A stretch of 64,000 bases of DNA from Bacteroidota bacterium (GTDB lineage: Bacteria > Bacteroidota > Bacteroidia > Bacteroidales > UBA7960), in NCBI GenBank assembly GCA_007693555.1, contig REDJ01000071.1:1-64000 (forward strand). The letters are read 5' to 3'. This document shows, piece by piece, positions 11,069 to 23,500 of this stretch (positions are counted from its first letter, which is position 1; each line of letters begins with the position of its first letter). Made by a program: the position numbers and the translations under genes. The notes below the pieces were generated by a model. The model had not been told where the DNA came from. It saw nothing but the letters and a program-made list of their open reading frames with translations, and did no database searches.

Positions 11069-12049
11069 TTATTTCTTCAGAAACTCCAGCACAATCCGAT
11101 TAAACTCATCCGACGCTTCAAATTGCACAAAATGCCCACATCGTGGAATCATATGCAGTTGATTGTTGGGAAGGAGTTCTTCACCTGCCCTGGCCACGTC
11201 AATAGTTGGTCCGGGGTTCAGGAAACGGTTGGGAATCAGATTGTCATTTTCGCCGAATATTATCAAAGCAGGCTGTTCTATCAGGTTCAGAAAATCGATA
11301 ACCGCTTCATCCACCATCCCGTTTACCGATTGCACCACAGCATAAGCATACGCTTCAAAATCTTCCGCCGAGCGCATGGCAATGCGGTCGGTAATCATAA
11401 ATTCTGCATCATCTGGAAGTTCATAAAAGTTGTATGCAAGGTTTGAAATGATATCCTCAACAGAGGTGAGCATAACACCTCTTACAGTCATAACATTCCT
11501 GAACCACTGTTTCTGTCCTTCGGTAAAACGTTCAAGCCCTGCAGGAGCAGCTAGAATAAGTTTTTCTACCCTCTCAGGATAATAAAGGGCTGTAACCATA
11601 GAAATTTGTCCTCCCATGGAATGCCCCCCCAGCACAATTTTGCCCAGTCCTAAGGCTTCTGCAAAATCATTGACCACACCGGCATAATAGGTCATCATGC
11701 CACTATGGGGCAATTTGTCTGATTTACCATAGCCAGGAAGGTCAATGGCAATTACTCTGAAATGGTTGCTCAATTCGGGAATATTCTTTTTCCAGGCCGG
11801 CAGATAGCTTCCCAGCCCATGGATCAATACCAGGGTTTGATCTCCCTGCCCCTGGTCAACATAAGCAATCCGCTCACCTCCGGGAAGATCAACCCAATGG
11901 GTTTCAAAAGGATACTCCAAATCCATGAATGATTCAAAAGGTTCTAATTTGCTGTATGGATGCCAGTTTGCAGGCTTCATGGTTTCACACCGGATAAAAA
12001 GCAGTAAGGTTGCAGCCATTATTATCGGGAAAAATATCTTTTGTATCAT
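11069..12049 (-). CDS. Alpha/beta-hydrolase, probable lipoprotein
   Basis: A 326-residue alpha/beta-hydrolase. The oxyanion motif IHGLGS (76-81), nucleophile elbow GGHSMGG (Ser144), acid in GENDNLIP (Asp269) and base in RCGHF (His306) give a complete catalytic triad. The N-terminus is hydrophobic and ends LLFIRC21, so it may be lipidated at Cys21, although the residue before the cysteine is atypical. Likely acts on small esters or similar substrates in the envelope; substrate not identifiable. It ends a minus-strand pair, 12 nt downstream of the porin-like gene, suggesting co-transcription. Confidence 0.85.
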   Translation of the reverse strand: MIQKIFFPIIMAATLLLFIRCETMKPANWHPYSKLEPFESFMDLEYPFETHWVDLPGGERIAYVDQGQGDQTLVLIHGLGSYLPAWKKNIPELSNHFRVIAIDLPGYGKSDKLPHSGMMTYYAGVVNDFAEALGLGKIVLGGHSMGGQISMVTALYYPERVEKLILAAPAGLERFTEGQKQWFRNVMTVRGVMLTSVEDIISNLAYNFYELPDDAEFMITDRIAMRSAEDFEAYAYAVVQSVNGMVDEAVIDFLNLIEQPALIIFGENDNLIPNRFLNPGPTIDVARAGEELLPNNQLHMIPRCGHFVQFEASDEFNRIVLEFLKK

Positions 12050-12061
12050 ATCCGTAATATT

Positions 12062-13651
12062 TTAAAACATAAGCCATTTGTAAACCACAAATACAGTCCA
12101 GGGGTTTGCAGGTCTTACTCCCTGCACTCCGCCATTAATTGCCACCCCGTACCTGTCATCAGCACTGTCAAAGAAATCCCCTAACCACAGGTGTGCGCCG
12201 TGTAACTCTATACTCATAAAAGGCCCGAGATTGTAAACAATACCGGCATTTGCCTCAACGCCCATAAAATTCCCGCCACCAATTGGAGTAGCATTGCTAA
12301 CGGCACCGGCAGTTCCAACTTTTGCATGGAGCCTGTTGGGAATAATTCCGCGGGAGTAGTTGATGGTACCTCCGGTAAATCCATATCCGATGTTGGAAAG
12401 ATCTGCAATAACCGGTGTAAAACGGTTTACCACATTGGCATGGGGAAACAGCAAATATGCTCCTGAATTAATAAAAAATCCACCCGGCGCTGCCCATGTG
12501 TTTCCGGTAATTACACCGCTGTAACGTCTGTCATCAAGCCCATTTTCATCACCGGTAGTATACATCATGTCAATTGTTACACGATCCTGTATGGTTTGAC
12601 CATAGCGATAACCCATACGCAGATTTGCAGCAAATCCACTGATGTCTGCACCGGTGCGCCAACCTGCTTCACGCTGCACATTTACGACACCCAGATTATA
12701 GTTGAAAAAACCATTGAGGAAAAACCGGTCGAGCATATAATCAGCATTGCGAGAAAAATGGGTTCCAAGCCATAGCACATCCGCCTTGTAAGGAGCAGAA
12801 CCGAATTTAAACCTGAAAACCCCGTTATACTCGGTAAGCTGCGAATTAAGCCCCTGCCCAAGGATTGACACCCCTCCACGCCCGTTACCTCTATCTCTAA
12901 CATAATGGCTGGTAAGTGCGGCACGCCACAATCTGTTAATATTTCTTTCATACTGAAACTCAAACATATTCACATCATCATCCTTGAATATCTCATTTTC
13001 GTAAAACTTGAAAAATCCGGCCTTGAACCGATGGAAGTCTGCATTTCTGTATAAAGTAAGACCCACGGCGTGGGTACCAAAGTAAGTCATCCTGAACCCA
13101 TTTTCCAGCATTTTATCGGCTACGGTGCGATAAGGATTATATGGGTTATCATACATCCGCTGCAATCCCAGGTTAATCATCCAGCCAGGATATGGGATGT
13201 ATTCAATTTCAATGTTCTGTGTTTGCAGGTTTACCTGATGCCCCGATATGGCACCCCCCTGATTGGGCCCGGCACCGTAAGAAACATCGCCCCAGGTCCA
13301 GTCAATCTCAAAAACAGCTCTCAAAATTGCTTTGCCGTCAAAAAGACTTGGTTGATAAATAAAAAAAGGAATAAGCCTTTGTTCGATATAACCGGTAGTT
13401 TCAGTTTCACTGGTCATTACTGAGTTGCGGCCAAACATCCTACCCAGTACTTGCCCCCTGAGGAATTCATTCTGGGGGAAAAAGTTTGAAGAAACTCCCT
13501 GGTTGATGTAAAAAGCCAGGAACTGAAACTCTTTATTGGGCTCTCCCGGCACCTGTGTATCAAATACCCTTGGTGACTGCTGGGAGAATAAATCCGGGCT
13601 GATAAAAAAAATTAAGAACAATATTAACCATGGGATATATTTCTTTTTCAT
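12062..13651 (-). CDS. Outer-membrane porin-like beta-barrel protein
   Basis: A 529-residue protein with a clean signal peptide (about 1-24, ending LFSQQ) and a long series of amphipathic strands rich in aromatic residues and glycine, ending in a strand with a terminal aromatic (VVYKWLMF). Size and pattern fit a 14-18-strand outer-membrane channel, comparable to alginate-export or substrate-specific porins. No substrate motif was recognised. It precedes the hydrolase gene by 12 nt, so the two may act together on one exogenous substrate (inference). Confidence 0.7.
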   Translation of the reverse strand: MKKKYIPWLILFLIFFISPDLFSQQSPRVFDTQVPGEPNKEFQFLAFYINQGVSSNFFPQNEFLRGQVLGRMFGRNSVMTSETETTGYIEQRLIPFFIYQPSLFDGKAILRAVFEIDWTWGDVSYGAGPNQGGAISGHQVNLQTQNIEIEYIPYPGWMINLGLQRMYDNPYNPYRTVADKMLENGFRMTYFGTHAVGLTLYRNADFHRFKAGFFKFYENEIFKDDDVNMFEFQYERNINRLWRAALTSHYVRDRGNGRGGVSILGQGLNSQLTEYNGVFRFKFGSAPYKADVLWLGTHFSRNADYMLDRFFLNGFFNYNLGVVNVQREAGWRTGADISGFAANLRMGYRYGQTIQDRVTIDMMYTTGDENGLDDRRYSGVITGNTWAAPGGFFINSGAYLLFPHANVVNRFTPVIADLSNIGYGFTGGTINYSRGIIPNRLHAKVGTAGAVSNATPIGGGNFMGVEANAGIVYNLGPFMSIELHGAHLWLGDFFDSADDRYGVAINGGVQGVRPANPWTVFVVYKWLMF

Positions 13652-13769: not shown

Positions 13770-14303
13770 TTATTCAGTAATTTCTACATAATACTGAACG
13801 TTATTTTCGCCTAATGCACCATCACCAGTGCTACCAAATCCACCTTCAGCTGTTGGGGGAGAAAAACCCAGGCTAGGTTCAGTTTGCACTACTTCATATT
13901 TCATTTCACGTCCATTTTCAGTTTCAATGATCTGAAATATTCCCTGGCTGGTTACGGAAGTAGGAGCACTTTGCACCAGTGTGATATTCCAAATATCTGA
14001 AACTGCTGATTCTTCCATAGTGTAAACACCGCTAAAAACAGTCATTACATCTTCTGAATCAAAAGATTCAACATGATAGGACCCATCTTCTTTAAATTCA
14101 GCAGTAATCTTTACAATGTCAAAAGCCGCCAGCAAGGGGGCAACATTTTCTCCCTCGGAAATCCAATTACCAATAAGACCTTCAGGAAGCGGATCTTCTC
14201 CAATTCCGTTATCATCGTCATCATCCTTACTGCAGGAAGTAAAACTCAACGTAACAGCGGCCATAAGCATAAAAGCCAATGCGAACAAATTTTTCTTTTT
14301 CAT
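13770..14303 (-). CDS. Lipoprotein with acidic surface-export signal
   Basis: A 177-residue lipoprotein. The signal peptide ends in FTSC24, and the mature N-terminus is Ser-Lys followed by five aspartates, which fits the K-(D/E)2 lipoprotein export signal that sends Bacteroidota lipoproteins to the cell surface. The body (GNWISEG near 45, then alternating strands) resembles a small lipocalin-like beta fold. Function unknown. It heads a minus-strand group with the porin and hydrolase genes, separated from them by a hairpin. Confidence 0.7.
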   Translation of the reverse strand: MKKKNLFALAFMLMAAVTLSFTSCSKDDDDDNGIGEDPLPEGLIGNWISEGENVAPLLAAFDIVKITAEFKEDGSYHVESFDSEDVMTVFSGVYTMEESAVSDIWNITLVQSAPTSVTSQGIFQIIETENGREMKYEVVQTEPSLGFSPPTAEGGFGSTGDGALGENNVQYYVEITE

Positions 14304-14650: not shown

Positions 14651-15676
14651 TTATCCCCACCTGATAACATTGGCTCCCCAGGCATAACCGATACCGGCAG
14701 CAATCATTGAGATTACAGTACCATTTTTTACCTTTCCGCTTTTTAAAGCCAGATGCAGTGAAAGAATCTGATCAATCTGACCGATGTGACCATAATTTTC
14801 CAGATAAATGCTTTGCTGGGGTGTCAATCCCAGTTCTTCCAGCAACCAATTGTGCATGGAGCGCTTGAAATGGAGTACTGCCAGGTAAGACAAGTTTGTC
14901 ATAGGAATACCTGATTTTTCAAAAGCTTTTTCCATGCAAAACATCCAGTTTTTCATGGACACTTCATTGAGGCGCTCTTTCATATGCTTCTCATCAAAAA
15001 CACGAAGCGACTTATAGGCCTGGCCTGCATTTTCGCAGGTAATGGGTTTTTCTGTACCACCAAATTCCACACCCACATCTCTCGCCAATGAACCGTCAGT
15101 CATAATATGCGTACCCAGGAGAAAATTTTTACCATAATTTTTTTTCATGACAATTGCACCTGCTCCTGCTCCAAGATTGTACATAAAGGAAACCGAATTA
15201 TCGGTATAATCAATAAAATCGCCATTGCGATACCCCCCCACAATCATTACTGTATTTATATCGGGATCAGCAATCATCATATCTTTGGCTATTTTCATTG
15301 CTGCTACTGCTGTACCACAGCGTTGTTGAACGTCTATTGCCCAGGCATTTACAGCACAAATCTTTTCCTGGATATAAATGCCTGAGGTAGTGAGCGGAAA
15401 TTCTTTCCATTCTTCTCCTATACATAAAATCAAATCCAATTCTTCTGCCTTTATACACGTATTTTTCAAGGCATCCATGGCAGCCCTTACTCCCATCTCC
15501 TGGGTGCCATCACCGGGTCCGGGAATGGCTTTTTGACGAATACCGAGTTTTTCTTCCACTGCCTGTACGCTCCAAACGTCACCGGTGGCTTCAGATATTT
15601 GTGCAGCAGTCATTCTGGTTTCAGGGATATAAATGCCTGTGCCTGCAATGCCAACATTTATTGAGTCAATATTCAT
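14651..15676 (-). CDS. KASIII-fold protein with Asn-to-His substitution in catalytic triad
   Basis: A 341-residue thiolase-fold protein of the FabH/KASIII superfamily. Aligned by eye with E. coli FabH (C112-H244-N274), the nucleophile is kept as Cys120 (VQQRC) and the base as His269 (AVLHFKRSM), but the Asn is His297 (ENYGHIGQ). FabH condenses acetyl-CoA with malonyl-ACP; loss of Asn often marks a changed reaction such as acyl transfer or condensation of other substrates. It is the last gene of a minus-strand cluster with thiolase, reductase, symporter and CoA-transferase, 20 nt after a second KASIII-like gene, so a heteromeric pair comparable to PqsBC is possible (inference). Housekeeping FabH is unlikely given the context. 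Confidence 0.82.
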   Translation of the reverse strand: MNIDSINVGIAGTGIYIPETRMTAAQISEATGDVWSVQAVEEKLGIRQKAIPGPGDGTQEMGVRAAMDALKNTCIKAEELDLILCIGEEWKEFPLTTSGIYIQEKICAVNAWAIDVQQRCGTAVAAMKIAKDMMIADPDINTVMIVGGYRNGDFIDYTDNSVSFMYNLGAGAGAIVMKKNYGKNFLLGTHIMTDGSLARDVGVEFGGTEKPITCENAGQAYKSLRVFDEKHMKERLNEVSMKNWMFCMEKAFEKSGIPMTNLSYLAVLHFKRSMHNWLLEELGLTPQQSIYLENYGHIGQIDQILSLHLALKSGKVKNGTVISMIAAGIGYAWGANVIRWG

Positions 15677-15696
15677 TTAATTCGTTTATTAAAAGT

Positions 15697-16698
15697 TTAA
15701 TATACAAACAGGTTACTACCCACTGCCAGTCCGGCACCCGAAGCCATAAACAAAACAGTGTCACCCTTCTTTACTTTGCCTTCTTTCACTGCATGATGAA
15801 AAGCCATGGGCACACAACCTGAGCCGGTGTAGCCGTATCGATCCATAACAAAACTGGCCTTGTGATAAGGTTGTTGCAGCTGGTCCATAACCATTTCTAT
15901 TACAGAGCGGTTGATCTGGGTAAAGACAAAGTGGTCAATCTGTGATATATCCATTCGGGCTTTTTGGAGCAGTTTGTTTACCACCAGGGGCCATAACCTT
16001 ACGTTTCGGTCGCCGGGTAAAGGCTGCAGGCTAAGCAGTCCATGTTTTTCTTCTTTTATCAATTCAGGGGTTATGGGATTGCGGCTACCTCCTGCGTAGA
16101 TACCTATAAAATCCCACTGAGTTCCATCGGTAAGCAACTGGCCGGTTATATAATTAGCTTCGGGATTGCGTTTTAACACCACAGCACCGGCGCCGTCAGC
16201 AAAGATTGAAATCCCGAACGCATCTTTTTTACGAATGAAAGCCGGCATGTTATAAACACCCACCACCAGACCGTATTCAATGGTGGGGTCGGTGGCCATG
16301 ATACGTACAGCACTATCCAGGGCAATGGTGAAGCTTGCACATGAAGCACTTACATCGAACGTAGAAGACCATTTCTCCTCTTTCTGCATGCGCCCCTGCA
16401 CCAGGATAGAAGTAGCCGGGGTGATAAACTCAGGTGTATCGGTACCAACCATAAACAGGCCTATTTGCTCCGGATCAATTCCGGCAGCCTCAATTGCATT
16501 GAATCCGGCTCTGGTAGCAAAATCAGCTGTTGTTTCTTTTAGTCCACGCAATCGGGCAATATGACGCCGGTAAATTCCCAGCTTGTTTTCGAGCTTTTCA
16601 GCATCAAATTCAACACCTGCCAAAACCATGAGCTCTTCATTACCAATGGCCTCTCCCGGAGCATAAATACCTGTGCCGATGATTTCTATGGGTAGCAT
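15697..16698 (-). CDS. KASIII-fold protein lacking catalytic His and Asn
   Basis: A 333-residue thiolase-fold protein. The nucleophile Cys120 (DVSASC) is present, but the position of FabH His244 is Thr260 (VFTQINRS) and that of Asn274 is Tyr290 (RYGYTGSG). With two of three triad residues replaced, standard decarboxylative Claisen condensation looks impaired; it could be an acyl-transferase-like subunit or a partner of the adjacent KASIII protein. The C-terminal GAGLAVGSNL keeps the family glycine loop. It lies 61 nt after the CoA-transferase gene and 20 nt before the second KASIII gene. Role in a C4 acyl-CoA pathway is inferred from neighbours. Confidence 0.82.
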   Translation of the reverse strand: MLPIEIIGTGIYAPGEAIGNEELMVLAGVEFDAEKLENKLGIYRRHIARLRGLKETTADFATRAGFNAIEAAGIDPEQIGLFMVGTDTPEFITPATSILVQGRMQKEEKWSSTFDVSASCASFTIALDSAVRIMATDPTIEYGLVVGVYNMPAFIRKKDAFGISIFADGAGAVVLKRNPEANYITGQLLTDGTQWDFIGIYAGGSRNPITPELIKEEKHGLLSLQPLPGDRNVRLWPLVVNKLLQKARMDISQIDHFVFTQINRSVIEMVMDQLQQPYHKASFVMDRYGYTGSGCVPMAFHHAVKEGKVKKGDTVLFMASGAGLAVGSNLFVY

Positions 16699-16759: not shown

Positions 16760-18070
16760 TTAAATATATCCGATCTCTTTTGCCTTTTCCAAAAGCTCAT
16801 CCCGAAATTTTGGGTCAGCAATATTGATGAGTGCTTTCGTACGCTCTTTAACAGTAAGACCGGTAAGGCGTGCCACTCCGTGCTCGGTAACTACATAATC
16901 GGTATTGCTGCGGTGCAATGTAACCGCAGTACCTTCCGGTAGTGTGGGCAATATGGTGGAAAGTTGTCCTCCCCGGGCAGTTGACCGGCAGGCAATGATT
17001 GATTTGCCTTTGCCATCCAGACCTTCTACAGCACCAACGGCGGTATCGGTCTGCCCACCCGTACCAGAATACTGATTGATACCAATGGATTCGCTGGCTA
17101 CCTGCCCGGTAAAATCAATCATAAGGCAGGTATTGATGGAAACCATTTTACTATTCTGTCGGATTACACAAGGGTCGTTTACATAAGTGCCTCGTAAAAA
17201 TTCAACTGAAGGGTTGTTATGCAACCATTTATACATTTTTTCGGAACCCATAGCAAAAGTGCATATGGATTTCCCTTTGTGAAGGGTCTTCTTTTTGTTG
17301 GTGATAACTCCTTTATCATACAAATCCACCATGGAGTCCACAAACATTTCGGTATGAATCCCCAAATCCTTTTTACCGGCCAGCGAAAGTGCAGCAGCAT
17401 TGGGTATTTCGCCAATGCCCAACTGTATGGTAGAACCATCTTCTACCAGAGAAGCAATGTGTTCACCAATTTTCAACGCCACCACATCAGGTTTAGGAGA
17501 CGGCAAGGTGGGTGGTGTTTGAGAATATTTCACAAAAAAATCCACATCTGATACATGCACCTGGGTATCGCCAAGCGTGCGAGGCAGTTGGTCATTCACT
17601 TCCAATACAACGATTTCGGCGGCTTCAAGAATGTCCTTTTCGTAGGTAATTCCAAGAGAAAGAGATATAAACCCTTTGTCATCGGGTGGCGTGCAGGTTC
17701 CAAAAAACATGTGGGGGCGGCGAACCTTTAACCGGTCACTGGCCGCACGGTGCAGCATATTGGGCACATAGGTTACTGTACCGGTACCATCCTTTATGGC
17801 CTGGCGTGAGCCTGGTGCATGAAACCAGCTGCAGAGCTCGAAGTGCCCCTTCATCTCTGGTTTCATATAAAAATCATAAGGGTTAAGGGTTAGCACCGAG
17901 AAAACCTGTACATTTTGAACATTGTCCTTTGCCAAATGAAATTTTGACATACATCCCTGGGGCTCCGATGCACACTGGGCAACAATTACATCAGTATTGC
18001 TCTTCATCTTCATCACGGCCTCTTCGATGGTGATTAGCTTTGATTTGTATATTTCTGAGAAGTTTGTCAT
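16760..18070 (-). CDS. Acetyl-CoA hydrolase/transferase family CoA-transferase
   Basis: A 436-residue CoA-transferase of the acetyl-CoA hydrolase / 4-hydroxybutyrate CoA-transferase family. The CoA-binding loop GIGEIPNA begins at 218, the catalytic glutamate is Glu241 (HTEMFVD, matching the Glu238 motif of 4-hydroxybutyrate CoA-transferase), and GTGGQTD (336-342) and the EHGVARLTG C-terminal signature are present. It swaps CoA between short-chain acids, typically with acetate. Its start overlaps the end of the upstream symporter gene by 4 nt (ATGA), so the two are translationally coupled. Substrate may be C4 (butyrate, 3-hydroxybutyrate, acetoacetate), inferred from the thiolase and reductase upstream. 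Confidence 0.88.
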   Translation of the reverse strand: MTNFSEIYKSKLITIEEAVMKMKSNTDVIVAQCASEPQGCMSKFHLAKDNVQNVQVFSVLTLNPYDFYMKPEMKGHFELCSWFHAPGSRQAIKDGTGTVTYVPNMLHRAASDRLKVRRPHMFFGTCTPPDDKGFISLSLGITYEKDILEAAEIVVLEVNDQLPRTLGDTQVHVSDVDFFVKYSQTPPTLPSPKPDVVALKIGEHIASLVEDGSTIQLGIGEIPNAAALSLAGKKDLGIHTEMFVDSMVDLYDKGVITNKKKTLHKGKSICTFAMGSEKMYKWLHNNPSVEFLRGTYVNDPCVIRQNSKMVSINTCLMIDFTGQVASESIGINQYSGTGGQTDTAVGAVEGLDGKGKSIIACRSTARGGQLSTILPTLPEGTAVTLHRSNTDYVVTEHGVARLTGLTVKERTKALINIADPKFRDELLEKAKEIGYI

Positions 18071-19626
18071 ACCTCGCTGGTTTTATTTTTACTTAAAAAA
18101 TGTACGGTAAGCCCCACCACTGTCGAAAACACGATAGCTGTTGAAGCTGCTATGGCAGGGTTTCGCACTTCGCCCTGAAGATATTTGGTAAAGAAACCCA
18201 TGTTCAGGTCCCAGGCTTCTACCATCATGGGCAACATATAATACACTGAAAAATGCACCACCAGGGCTGTAGCCGAAGCTGCTACGGCTGCTTTCAATCC
18301 GGCTTTGGGTGAAAAAATACCCAGAACAATAGGCAGAAAGGCAATGCTGAAAAAAGCATAAACACCATTCTGGGCCAGAATGGCAACACTCAGCTTGGGA
18401 AATAACAACTGGTCGCGGGCAATGAAAAAAGAAACTACTGCAAGGAAAACAATAGCCATTTTATTGATTACCATGTAGGAGGACTCATCTTTTATCTTTT
18501 CACCAAACAACGGCTTGATGATATCGGAAGTTATGATGGTAGATAGTGATTGTATCAACCCTTCCAGTGTAGACAATCCGGCACTGAGGAGCCCAAGGAT
18601 AACAATCAGACCCACTACCACAGAAAACCATCCTGAAGAGAAAATAGTTATCACATAAGTGGGAATGACATCATCAGCATTAAGCACCTGACCATTGGCT
18701 GTTAAATCAGGAAACTGTATGCGGGCATAAAGACCCACAAATACAACTGAGAAGAAAAGCATCTGGGCAATCACAGCACTTACCAGGAATTTATTGACAT
18801 CGCTTTCTTTTTTCAGGAACAGCGACTTTGTAATAATATGAGGCTGACAAACCACTGCAACACCAATAACAATCTGCGCAAAAATTATTTCATAATAATC
18901 GCGGAAGAGCAGGCTGCCCGGATTTGTAGATTTAACAAGAACCGGATCAATGGCAGCAAGTTTATCAACAAACCCCTGGATACCATCTCTGAAATGTTCA
19001 AGACCCGAAGTAAGAAGGATTATTGCCACAACAAGCATTACGAAGGCCTGTAAAGTATTGGTGTAAACCAGGGAGTTGGCACCCCCGAACATCATATATC
19101 CGAATACAAAAACTATAATAAAAGTAAGGATATATACCTGGTTGAGGTTGAGTGCTGCCGAAAGAACTTTGGCAAGTGCAACAAGAATCAGCACGATGAA
19201 TGTGATAAGCAGAAACGACATAAAACCCATGAACAAAGAATAGGATGAGCTGTTGTAACGACGTCCCATCCATTGTGCAAGGGTGGTAGCTTTGGTGGCC
19301 TGTCCGTATTTTCGGAAGCTTTTTGTAAGGATGACCAATGATATCATGCTGGCAATGGGAAAGAAAACCCCGAATGAAAGCACTCCGCTAAATCCAAATA
19401 TGGTAATCAGTGCAGGATTGATAACAAAAGTAGCTGCACTGGTCATGGAAACTGCCAGCGATAGCCCTACAAATGCCGGGGAAAAATTAAGATTGCCAAT
19501 TGCATAGTCCTGAATGTTTTTGGTTCGCAAAGCCCCCCTTATTACAAAAAACAATACGAGTGCTGCGTATGCAATCAGCAGTATCCAGGCACCTAAGATT
19601 TGTTGTTGCGTTGCCATGTAAGCCAA
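18067..19626 (-). CDS. Sodium:solute symporter (SSS family)
   Basis: A 519-residue membrane carrier with about 13 hydrophobic helices and sodium:solute symporter features, including the helix-2 segment MTSAATFVINPA near residue 60. SSS members couple Na+ to uptake of solutes such as acetate, proline, pantothenate or sugars. Coupling to a CoA-transferase gene (4-nt overlap) suggests a short-chain carboxylate substrate; this is inference from context. A 290-nt gap holding two palindromic repeats separates it from the upstream reductase gene, so it may have its own promoter. Confidence 0.87.
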   Translation of the reverse strand: MAYMATQQQILGAWILLIAYAALVLFFVIRGALRTKNIQDYAIGNLNFSPAFVGLSLAVSMTSAATFVINPALITIFGFSGVLSFGVFFPIASMISLVILTKSFRKYGQATKATTLAQWMGRRYNSSSYSLFMGFMSFLLITFIVLILVALAKVLSAALNLNQVYILTFIIVFVFGYMMFGGANSLVYTNTLQAFVMLVVAIILLTSGLEHFRDGIQGFVDKLAAIDPVLVKSTNPGSLLFRDYYEIIFAQIVIGVAVVCQPHIITKSLFLKKESDVNKFLVSAVIAQMLFFSVVFVGLYARIQFPDLTANGQVLNADDVIPTYVITIFSSGWFSVVVGLIVILGLLSAGLSTLEGLIQSLSTIITSDIIKPLFGEKIKDESSYMVINKMAIVFLAVVSFFIARDQLLFPKLSVAILAQNGVYAFFSIAFLPIVLGIFSPKAGLKAAVAASATALVVHFSVYYMLPMMVEAWDLNMGFFTKYLQGEVRNPAIAASTAIVFSTVVGLTVHFLSKNKTSEV

Positions 19627-19792: not shown

Positions 19793-19919
19793 TGGTGTCT
19801 GGTCAGAAAGTGCCAGTTGCGAGGCTTGCGAAGCCGCCAAAAACGGAGTTTACTTTTCGTAAATGAGTATTTTGGCGGCGAGCGTAACGAAGCAAATGGT
19901 ACTTTATGGACAGACACTA
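19793..19919. repeat. Long imperfect palindrome, element 2
   Basis: A ~127-bp imperfect palindrome with ~60-nt arms. The left arm starts GGTGTCTGGTCAGAAAGTGCC and the complementary right arm starts AGTGTCTGTCCATAAAGTACC; both continue into GCCGCCAAAA and GTTTAC. Its right end reaches the stop codon (TAG) of the reductase gene on the minus strand, so it forms the 3' end of that transcript and could act as a terminator or mRNA stabiliser. Confidence 0.7.
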
Positions 19920-20660
19920 AATCGTTATGCCGCCATCCACGCTGATTACAGCGCCATTAATATAAGCAGCTTCATCAGATGCAAGATACGCATAAATCGA
20001 AGCAATTTCATCGGGCTCGCCTAAACGCCCAACCGGAACTTTTTCTTCCATGGCTTTCAGCACATTCTCAGGCATCTTTTTTACCATATCGGTGGCAATG
20101 AAACCCGGAGCCACCGCGTTAACGGTAACCCCTTTGCGGCCCAATTCGCGCGCCATGGTTTTGGTCATACCAATTACGCCTGCTTTGGTGGCCACATAAT
20201 TTGTCTGCCCAAAGTTTCCATAAAGAGCTACCACAGATGAGGTATTTACAATACGCCCATAACCACGTTCAGTCATAGGTACACCAATAACCTTAGCGCA
20301 ATTGAATACACCGGTAAGGTTAACGTCAATAACCTGCTGCCATTGCTCAGGGGTCATTTTTTTCAGGGAAGCATCGCGGGTAATACCGGCGTTGTTAATA
20401 AGGATATCAATCCGGCCATACTGCTCCATTACCCTGGCTGCAGCTGCTTCCACTTCAGCGTATACAGCGGTATTCACCTTCATGAAGGAGGCCTTTCCAC
20501 CAGCGGTTTCCACCTCTTTACAGGTAGCCTCACCCATTTCAGGATTCATATCCCAGATTACAACGATGGCTCCCTCAGCAGCAAAACGAAGGGCACCGGC
20601 TTTTCCCAGCCCGGCAGCGCCACCTGTAATAACAGCAATTTTATTTTCAAGTCGTTTCAT
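19917..20660 (-). CDS. SDR-family 3-oxoacyl reductase, likely acetoacetyl-CoA reductase
   Basis: A 247-residue short-chain dehydrogenase. The Rossmann motif is TGGAAGLG (12-19), with NNAG (89-92), catalytic Ser142 region (NTSSVV), Tyr155-x3-Lys159 and the PGFIATDM loop. This is the FabG/PhaB subgroup, reducing 3-oxoacyl thioesters to 3-hydroxyacyl thioesters. Asp37 at the end of strand 2 (VVIWDM) usually selects NAD(H) over NADP(H), unlike most biosynthetic FabG enzymes. It lies 32 nt after the thiolase gene on the same strand, which favours acetoacetyl-CoA as substrate. The stop codon overlaps the edge of a long palindrome. Confidence 0.87.
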   Translation of the reverse strand: MKRLENKIAVITGGAAGLGKAGALRFAAEGAIVVIWDMNPEMGEATCKEVETAGGKASFMKVNTAVYAEVEAAAARVMEQYGRIDILINNAGITRDASLKKMTPEQWQQVIDVNLTGVFNCAKVIGVPMTERGYGRIVNTSSVVALYGNFGQTNYVATKAGVIGMTKTMARELGRKGVTVNAVAPGFIATDMVKKMPENVLKAMEEKVPVGRLGEPDEIASIYAYLASDEAAYINGAVISVDGGITI

Positions 20661-20692: not shown

Positions 20693-21874
20693 TTAAATTT
20701 TTTCAATAATGAGTGAAGTACCCTGTCCTCCGCCAATACACAAAGTTGCAAGGCCGGTTTTAGCATTACGCTTCTTCATTTCATAAAGGAGCGTTGTAAG
20801 GATACGTGCGCCTGAAGCACCAATGGGGTGACCGAGGGCTATGGCACCGCCATTAACATTCACTTTTTCCATATCAAGATCAAGGTCTTTGGCCACAGCC
20901 AGTGATTGTGCTGCAAATGCTTCATTGGCTTCAACCAGGTCAATGTCAGAAATGGTCATTCCGGCTTTCTTGAGAGCAGCGCGTGTTGCGGGTACCGGGC
21001 CGTAGCCCATTATTTTGGGGTCAAGGGCAGCATTGGCATAAGAAACTATTCTTGCAATGGGTTGAACACCCAGTTCTTTGGCTTTCTGAGCCGTCATGAT
21101 AATAAGCATTGCCGCACCATCATTCAAGCCTGAAGCATTACCGGCAGTTACTGTACCGTCTTTTTTGAATGCCGGACGCAATTTGGCTAACTTGTCAACT
21201 GTTATGCCCGATTTGGGATACTCATCGGTATCAAAAATAATAGGGTCGCCCTTGCGCTGTGGAATTTCCACTGAAACAATTTCTTCTTTGAATCGTCCTT
21301 CTTGTATTGCTTTTTCAGCCTTCTGCTGACTGTTTGCTGCAAAAACATCCTGTTCTTCGCGGCTAAGTTGCCATTGGTCGGCAATGTTTTCAGCAGTTAT
21401 TCCCATATGGAAATTGTTAAAAGCATCGGTAAGACCATCTTTAATCATACTGTCTGTAAGTTCGCCATGCCCCATGCGGTAGCCAAAGCGGGCTTTTTCA
21501 AGAAGGTAAGGAGCATTGCTCATGCTTTCGGTTCCACCGGCAAGTATTATATCGGCATCTCCCAACATTATAAATTGGGCTGCCATAATAACAGACCTCA
21601 GTCCACTGCCACATAGCTTGTTGATGGTCATGGCAGGACTGGTTTCAGGAACACCAGCAAGGACAGATATCTGGCGGGCAATATTCTGTCCCTGGCCTGC
21701 GGATAAGATATTTCCTACGATGGTTTCATCCACATCGGCAGGTTTGATACCGGCCCTGCTGATTGCTTCTTTGACGGCAATTACACCCAATTCTACAGCC
21801 GAAAAACCGGCCAGACTGCCACCATAGCTACCAATGGCAGTGCGTACTGCTGATACAATTACTACTTCACGCAT
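20693..21874 (-). CDS. Acetyl-CoA C-acetyltransferase (thiolase)
   Basis: A 393-residue type II thiolase of normal length. Catalytic Cys88 (NKLCGSG), NEAF at 317-320, His349 (GHPIGASG) and Cys379 (CIGGGQG) are all present. It condenses two acetyl-CoA to acetoacetyl-CoA or runs in reverse. It is the first gene of the minus-strand C4 cluster; the SDR reductase follows after 32 nt. Together they would interconvert acetyl-CoA and 3-hydroxybutyryl-CoA, with the CoA-transferase and symporter linking to an external carboxylate. No polyhydroxybutyrate synthase is present in the window. Confidence 0.93.
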
Positions 21875-22063: not shown

Positions 22064-23500
22064 ATGAAAAACAAATTATCTAAGTTTACGGAGTTTGCCA
22101 ATGAGCTTTATCCTCATGAGCTTGACTATCTGCTGGGAATTCAGAAATTTGAACATCCTGAAAATCTAAAAATCCTTAATCTGATTAATTACAATGTAAA
22201 AAACCCACATAATACTATCCCTTTCGATACTTTCATCGATAAGCGTCGCTATAGTTATGTGAAAAACTGGATTGAAACCAGCCTGCAGGCCAGGGATGTT
22301 GATTTGTTTTACGACTGGCTGATAGGATACGAAAAAAGGGTGCTGACAGACATTATACAGGTTAATGAAGAAAAAGAATTACTTAAAAAAGCAAAAGAAA
22401 TTGACCCCACACATTATTACTTTATTCGCTTTTACGAATTGATGCGTTATTACCGCGATTATCTGATTATTCGTAACCGGACTGATTATTACTGGACAAT
22501 AGAAAGCTTTCTTAAAACCTATCAGGCCCCTTACCAAACAGCGATTGATCTGAATACCCGCGTCAACCGTGCCACCGAAGATATTGTAGGGCAGTATTTT
22601 CAAAGTCAAACCGAATCGCGCCAGTGGGAAGAATTTCTTCAGCAGGTTTTTTTTAATAAGGAAATAGATGGATATACTCGCTACCGTGCAGCTGTGCGGC
22701 TTACCTATATGTATTACAATTATCGCGATTTTTCAAACCTGCGAAGCATTTACGAAGAACTTGACAGAAGTTTCCAGGCAGGGATATTCTATTCGCGACG
22801 AATTCTGGCTAACTATTATGCCAACAGGGCCATGATGCATTCAAAGCTTGGAGAACCGGAACTGGCAGAAAAGTATGGCTCGCTTTCTATACAACATGAA
22901 AACAGTGACTTTATCTTTTATTTACTAAACTTGTGCGGAGTTTTACTCAAAAGCAAAAAAAACAAGGAGGCACTGCAAATCATGCAAAAGTCCATCCCAC
23001 AGCTTCGTAAAACTGCCAATTATTACTATCGGATAGGCTTTGCAGCTTTTTACATCAGAACCCTCAATGCGAATCAAATGCATGCAGAGGCTGTTGATTA
23101 TGCAGAAACCTTTCACAGCTCATATAAAAAGGAAATCAACAAAAACCGTTGGCATCTTTTTTATAATACATACTTTCAAGCCCTTTCCCTAAATGAAAAT
23201 TTTGGAAAGATTCTTTCCCTGTCGCGACGATATAACCTTGTGGAAAAAGAGAAACAACAAATCGGTGAAGCACGCTATCTTCCTATATTATTATGGTATA
23301 CAACACTGGCAGATTATATGGAGGGAAATATTTCAGCTAAAACGCTGGAGCAGACAATAGTGTGGTCATGTCGAATGCTCGTAGAGAACAATTACAGAAT
23401 AAGAAAAATTAAAGATTTACTTGATGAACTGGCTCCTTTTGCTCCCGAAATATTACATAGCATAATACAGCAAACCCAATTGTATAAATTGAAAATATGA
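22064..23500 (+). CDS. Hypothetical TPR-like protein
   Basis: A 478-residue soluble protein without signal peptide or membrane segments. It is rich in Tyr, Phe, Arg and Leu in helical pairs spaced about 35-40 residues, for example RAAVRLTYMYYN near 206 and NYYANRAMMHSKLGEPELAEKYG near 255, which resembles tetratricopeptide-type repeats. No catalytic motif was recognised. It is transcribed alone, divergently from the C4 acyl-CoA cluster. TPR-like proteins of this size often act as scaffolds, but its partner is unknown. Confidence 0.7.
   Translation: MKNKLSKFTEFANELYPHELDYLLGIQKFEHPENLKILNLINYNVKNPHNTIPFDTFIDKRRYSYVKNWIETSLQARDVDLFYDWLIGYEKRVLTDIIQVNEEKELLKKAKEIDPTHYYFIRFYELMRYYRDYLIIRNRTDYYWTIESFLKTYQAPYQTAIDLNTRVNRATEDIVGQYFQSQTESRQWEEFLQQVFFNKEIDGYTRYRAAVRLTYMYYNYRDFSNLRSIYEELDRSFQAGIFYSRRILANYYANRAMMHSKLGEPELAEKYGSLSIQHENSDFIFYLLNLCGVLLKSKKNKEALQIMQKSIPQLRKTANYYYRIGFAAFYIRTLNANQMHAEAVDYAETFHSSYKKEINKNRWHLFYNTYFQALSLNENFGKILSLSRRYNLVEKEKQQIGEARYLPILLWYTTLADYMEGNISAKTLEQTIVWSCRMLVENNYRIRKIKDLLDELAPFAPEILHSIIQQTQLYKLKI

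Follow-up and report, generated by a model that had tools for sequence, protein, structure and literature searches.

Two adjacent genes in a 64,000-nucleotide stretch of Bacteroidales DNA (the window) encode KASIII-fold proteins, here called KA and KB, whose active sites are rebuilt and strongly conserved. In our best explanation, to which we give an even chance of being correct, KB is a ChlB3/CerJ-type acyltransferase within a gene module through which short hydroxy-acids are taken up and degraded, and KA is an accompanying protein that may dimerise with it. The pair belongs to a series of nine genes whose order, as listed here, is repeated across Bacteroidales:

20693 to 21874, minus strand: thiolase (acetyl-CoA C-acetyltransferase/BktB-like)
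19917 to 20660, minus strand: SDR of the FabG/acetoacetyl-CoA reductase type
18067 to 19626, minus strand: sodium/solute symporter (SSF), its last 4 nt overlapping the start of the CoA-transferase gene
16760 to 18070, minus strand: CoA-transferase of the acetyl-CoA hydrolase/transferase family; the nearest model, butyryl-CoA:acetate CoA-transferase, scores below its cut-off
15697 to 16698, minus strand: KA, KASIII-fold protein of 333 aa with Cys120-Thr260-Tyr290, and Asp87 at the HMG-CoA-synthase Glu position
14651 to 15676, minus strand: KB, KASIII-fold protein of 341 aa with Cys120-His297-Asp302, and also His269, Glu89 and Lys271
13770 to 14303, minus strand: small putative lipoprotein with no family match
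12062 to 13651, minus strand: porin-like protein with a weak Alginate_exp match, below its cut-off
11069 to 12049, minus strand: alpha/beta hydrolase whose N-terminus looks, by eye, like that of a lipoprotein

The coordinates and the 20-nt gap (KA stop at 15697, KB start at 15676) of a preliminary description of this DNA were verified for two ORFs on the minus strand, as was its assignment of both products to the KASIII fold: both contain Pfam KASIII domains and are predicted to adopt the full-length fold (pLDDT 93.8 for KB and 93.2 for KA). The KB model aligned with FabHA at Z 39 over 309 residues, and the KA model with E. coli FabH at Z 45 over 317 residues. Both proteins score under the cut-offs of the FabH models TIGR00747 (KB 100.9, KA 167.6, cut-off 292.1) and PRK09352 (KB 115.2, KA 187.7, cut-off 249). 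A separate FabH with Cys-His-Asn is encoded on another contig of the same genome, ruling out KA and KB as the housekeeping enzyme. KB is a member of NCBIfam NF005308/PRK06840 (459.4 bits, cut-off 315), a family that no paper names in the limited literature collection searched; 428 KB candidates in genome_contigs were confirmed by tblastn. The label “3-oxoacyl-ACP synthase” for KB is probably wrong. Among those listed, the Foldseek/VIA structure matches of KB are mostly FabHs, BioZ, OleA, PqsC and PqsD, and the absence of ChlB3 and CerJ among them is uninformative either way.

MAFFT, hhalign and predicted secondary structure all place KA Thr260 at the position of FabH His244 and Tyr290 at that of Asn274. 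The three methods agree with the Cys120-Thr260-Tyr290 site originally read for KA, which departs from the E. coli FabH triad. Setting apart nine FabH-type Cys-His-Asn sequences from the 72 ORFs that matched KA left 63 C-(T/S)-Y ORFs, all with the Cys and the Tyr, 62 with Thr and one with Ser; in this set, as in the set of 100 KB ORFs described below, some contigs were counted twice, having been reached by two routes. Asp87 is invariant (63/63). The 61 core KA sequences all have a second Cys, Cys295, five residues past Tyr290 at the place of KB Asp302. Two distant KASIII proteins with C-T-Y and C-S-Y sites (L163:8461-9504 and L165:9912-10916) stand apart from any operon neighbours, and the KA-type site may belong to a wider family. 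Aldolases of the Ltp2/Sal type were considered for KA; their catalytic Tyr lies within a YDHF/YDCY motif according to the available text of PMC12329534.

The corresponding reading of KB, Cys120-His269-His297, stands for Cys120 and for His297 at the Asn274 position and was not confirmed for His269 at the His244 position. In MAFFT and hhalign alignments Leu268 occupies the His244 position and His269 that of Gln245, in agreement with the four-residue strand-helix linker present in both predicted models; a phmmer alignment of a haloarchaeal KB relative takes the other register, opening a gap that brings its His onto that of FabH. The likely place of His269 is one residue beyond that of the FabH His. 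Comparison with the Cys-His-His site of KAS I/II showed that His297 fits and that His269 appears shifted by one, the register varying with the method. The earlier statement that Asn is lost in both proteins and His in one is borne out for Asn, while at the His244 position most methods show a different residue in both. Across 100 KB ORFs, 79 of them from distinct genome_contigs loci, C120, E89, L268, H269, K271, H297 and D302 are invariant, and FabH residues W32, R249 and F304 are replaced in every case and R151 in 89. D302 and E89, like Asp87 of KA, did not feature in the preliminary description. In the haloarchaeal relatives (~35% identity) Thr occupies the His position and the next residue is His; both also have a His equivalent to His297 and an Asp five residues on.

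This arrangement resembles the sites of two KASIII-fold acyltransferases. Excerpts of PMC9573744 give the acyl-transfer site of ChlB3 as Cys113-His296-Asp301 and describe Cys116 and His295 as required in CerJ. The phmmer alignments of KB residues 250-341 end with KB 337 on ChlB3 336 and KB 338 on CerJ 336, which puts KB His297 on ChlB3 His296 and CerJ His295, and KB Asp302 on ChlB3 Asp301. The haloarchaeal relative aligns over 5-332 with CerJ 8-335; the offset is 3 at either end and places its His292 on CerJ His295. Judged by these end points, KB has a site of the ChlB3/CerJ type, composed of Cys, a His in place of the FabH Asn and an Asp five residues further. KB shares with CerJ and ChlB3 the KASIII fold, the nucleophilic Cys, the His at the His297 position and the lack of a decarboxylating His/Asn pair, and with ChlB3 also the Asp five residues past the His. 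From this residue match, acyl transfer without decarboxylation appears most likely for KB, which favours the half of the preliminary proposal in which an acyl group is transferred. The match itself depends on where the alignments end, and over its whole length KB has low similarity to ChlB3 (E 6e-13) and is closer to FabHs. CerJ and ChlB3 also come from antibiotic clusters, whereas KB is encoded in a catabolic uptake operon.

Glu89 weakens the acyltransferase reading, since it lies at the HMG-CoA-synthase Glu position and would suit aldol-type chemistry too. The TES-motif Glu of HMG-CoA synthases is present as Glu89 in KB and replaced by Asp87 in KA, in an alignment with two such enzymes (L160 and L162; the other three of the five ORFs look like HMG-CoA reductases), and the two residues are without exception in their families (100/100 and 63/63). 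They could serve as acid/base in an HMG-CoA-synthase-like aldol or retro-aldol enzyme, a proposal we regard as distinctly improbable: NF003274 scores KB at 59 and KA at 63.8 (cut-off 244), the His region aligned poorly, so that the Glu column alone was judged, and the module offers no obvious ketone substrate. KAS I has its second catalytic His, and thiolase its GHP His, at the position of His297. A Cys together with a His at that position, in a catabolic setting, would suit a degradative thiolase-like KB cleaving a 3-ketoacyl-CoA that the operon thiolase refuses. We think this improbable as well, given that neither KB nor KA has a Pfam thiolase match, that a true thiolase is encoded in the same operon and that Asp302 is left unaccounted for.

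We surveyed the distribution of the two genes. In the window's order, represented by 149 genomes, KB (over its family cut-off) and KA (E <= 1e-60) each occur in seven, and these are the same seven; the chance probability of ~4e-12 for this assumes independent genomes, an assumption that does not hold. In the Firmicutes class to which Soehngenia longivitae belongs, KB exceeds the cut-off in five of 245 genomes and KA was found in none at E <= 1e-75, the same KA query having reached E 1e-117 or better in four other KB genomes as a positive control. Of 20 other KB genomes, four have a strong KA (>350 bits) and 16 lack one. One of the four is a spirochaete MAG, in which the KA relative (L164:9479-10489, 57% identity) has no operon neighbours and KB lies with a CoA-transferase on a different contig of the bin (L112). 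KA without KB was found in neither survey (149 + 245 genomes) at these thresholds. The KB family model also exceeded its cut-off in a control genome, that of Thermus composti.

Gene neighbourhoods were compared at 80 KB loci, a biased sample consisting of the best matches to the Bacteroidales query. KB was picked as an ORF of >300 aa in 79 of them, L101 being excluded by an overlapping ORF. Record titles and gene order were used to divide the loci by hand into 51 of Bacteroidota/Ignavibacteriota/Chlorobiota type and 29 of Firmicutes/Spirochaete type. KA is present in 48 of the former and three of the latter; the three loci of the first type without a counted KA are L060, with a match under the filter, L092, on a short contig, and L095, where KB has no operon. 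KB appears to be the core of the system and KA a clade-specific partner. In a phylogenetic tree, KB groups with haloarchaeal proteins, while 18 C-(T/S)-Y KA rows form one group (96/94) with FabHs as neighbours, indicating that the two are not a recent duplicate pair; the “KA” label in this tree includes five FabH-type rows too, and the long-branch join was flagged as unsure.

The preliminary description had likened the pair to PqsBC and suggested a heteromer that forms a C-C bond or transfers an acyl group. PqsBC likewise consists of two co-encoded KASIII-like proteins without the FabH triad, the genes for KA and KB are adjacent and coincide exactly in the window's order, and the KB model matches the PqsBC chain 6et2_A at Z 38.4, level with FabHs. 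In the parts of PMC4807248 available, PqsB is described as having none of the three catalytic residues and PqsC as having Val for Asn. On that account PqsB lacks the Cys, whereas KA and KB both keep Cys120, so that neither resembles PqsB, and PqsC combines Val at the Asn position with a FabH-type His, whereas in KB that position holds His. Together with the Asp five residues on, this His brings KB closer to ChlB3/CerJ. The pair holds together wherever it occurs in the window's order and does not do so in general, KB occurring without KA in the five Firmicutes-class genomes, without a strong KA in most of the other KB genomes, and, as relatives, beside haloarchaeal importers. An obligate heteromer of the PqsBC kind is therefore not general, and membership of PqsBC itself is ruled out by the differing residues and by how often KB is alone. 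That KA and KB together make a C-C bond by Claisen condensation is in our view quite unlikely; neither protein keeps the FabH Asn274 or, according to most methods, the His244, and we found nothing positive in support of C-C bond formation.

KA could instead be a non-catalytic scaffold that stabilises KB, a role compatible with acyl transfer by KB. The FabH His and Asn are gone from KA (Thr in 62/63, Tyr in 63/63) and KB occurs elsewhere without it, but the invariance of Cys120, Asp87, Tyr290 and, in the core sequences, Cys295 is unlike a decaying site, and we judge this role of KA to be unlikely.

The C4 acyl-CoA setting proposed earlier is supported. G128 differs from the Bacteroidales arrangement in having an AMP-ligase where the CoA-transferase would be, with KA placed upstream of the symporter. 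This gene order recurs in Ignavibacteria-type loci, among which the ligase was checked by family in L032 and L092. A 478-aa protein at 22064-23500 on the plus strand has no Pfam match and is transcribed divergently from the thiolase in the window. Look-alikes of it, with N-termini judged by eye, lie just past the hydrolase end in several Bacteroidales loci, and it may belong to the module.

At the 29 Firmicutes/Spirochaete-type loci, all with KB, its companions are a CoA-transferase (25 loci), an alpha/beta hydrolase and ABC importer components (20 loci each), an SDR (18) and a thiolase (nine). Searches of plasmids returned haloarchaeal KB relatives at ~35% and otherwise distant KASIII proteins. 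In the haloarchaeal plasmids, the KB relative follows an ABC importer in all four records examined; in three, genes for an AMP-ligase and an alpha/beta hydrolase are close by as well. In Halobaculum limi (L166:15045-18094), the genes beside the relative carry the annotation of a 2-oxoacid dehydrogenase complex. KB loci have a common theme: uptake, hydrolysis of esters, activation with CoA, and oxidation and cleavage of the C4 type.

A more specific pointer to the substrate comes from NF050089, the model for intracellular short-chain PHA depolymerase, which exceeds its cut-off of 300 bits near KB in six loci (L037, L042, L072, L073, L075 and L102, with L072 counted through its 100% identity with L073) and falls below it in L066 (298.3) and L093 (206.9). 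The presence of this PHB-depolymerase family in six KB loci points to acids of the 3-hydroxybutyrate type. Counted by genome, NF050089 has matches in 12 of the 27 that carry KB, 11 of them above the cut-off, and in none of 14 named control genomes, the sole control for this rate. It matches none of the seven Bacteroidales KB genomes, and the window's own hydrolase scores 92.7, far under the cut-off, both of which count against our explanation. PhaC_N matches, all over a partial profile, occur in four of the 27 KB genomes (three over the cut-off) and in none of the seven Bacteroidales ones, making it unlikely that the module serves internally stored PHB there.

In the acyltransferase reading, Cys120 of KB would be loaded with an acyl group that comes from CoA or an ester, His297, held by Asp302, would activate it, and the group would be handed to a second acceptor without decarboxylation. 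The putative substrates of the module would be short hydroxy-acids, among which (R)-3-hydroxybutyrate, or esters or oligomers of it, is the most likely, taken up by the Na+ symporter with the porin-like protein or by an ABC importer. Alpha/beta hydrolases would act on this path, a CoA-transferase or AMP-ligase would activate the acid with CoA, the SDR would oxidise it to the 3-ketoacyl-CoA and the thiolase would cleave the product. KA would be a second rebuilt KASIII protein that goes with KB in Bacteroidota and in a handful of other lineages, perhaps in a mixed dimer with it.

The breakdown of 3-hydroxybutyrate and PHB resembles this module in its SDR, CoA-transferase and thiolase and, in some relatives, a member of the PHB-depolymerase family. 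We know of no KASIII step in that breakdown. It needs none, so the pathway alone leaves the KB step unexplained, which tells against our explanation. A limited literature search found no report of a KASIII protein in a 3-hydroxybutyrate module, a result that does not prove that none has been published. Available excerpts describe PHB breakdown in Bacillus thuringiensis through PhaZ, BdhA and AacS (PMC4908106) and mention thiolysis of PHB for PhaZ1 of Ralstonia eutropha (PMC3430594), so that such chemistry would have precedent in other enzymes. KB might correspondingly cleave 3-hydroxybutyrate esters or oligomers with CoA to give 3-hydroxyacyl-CoA directly, saving the cost of activation, with KA adapting KB in Bacteroidota; we consider this specific version unlikely.

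KB is found at hundreds of loci under the name of a condensing enzyme, yet its site looks, from its residues, like that of an acyltransferase and its neighbours are catabolic. To our knowledge, no KASIII-fold enzyme has been described in short hydroxy-acid catabolism. If our explanation is right, an enzyme of this fold takes part in that catabolism, and many genomes would be misannotated under the 3-oxoacyl-ACP synthase model. KA and KB, two lineages with two different sites in one operon, provide a natural test of how the KASIII site can be rebuilt.
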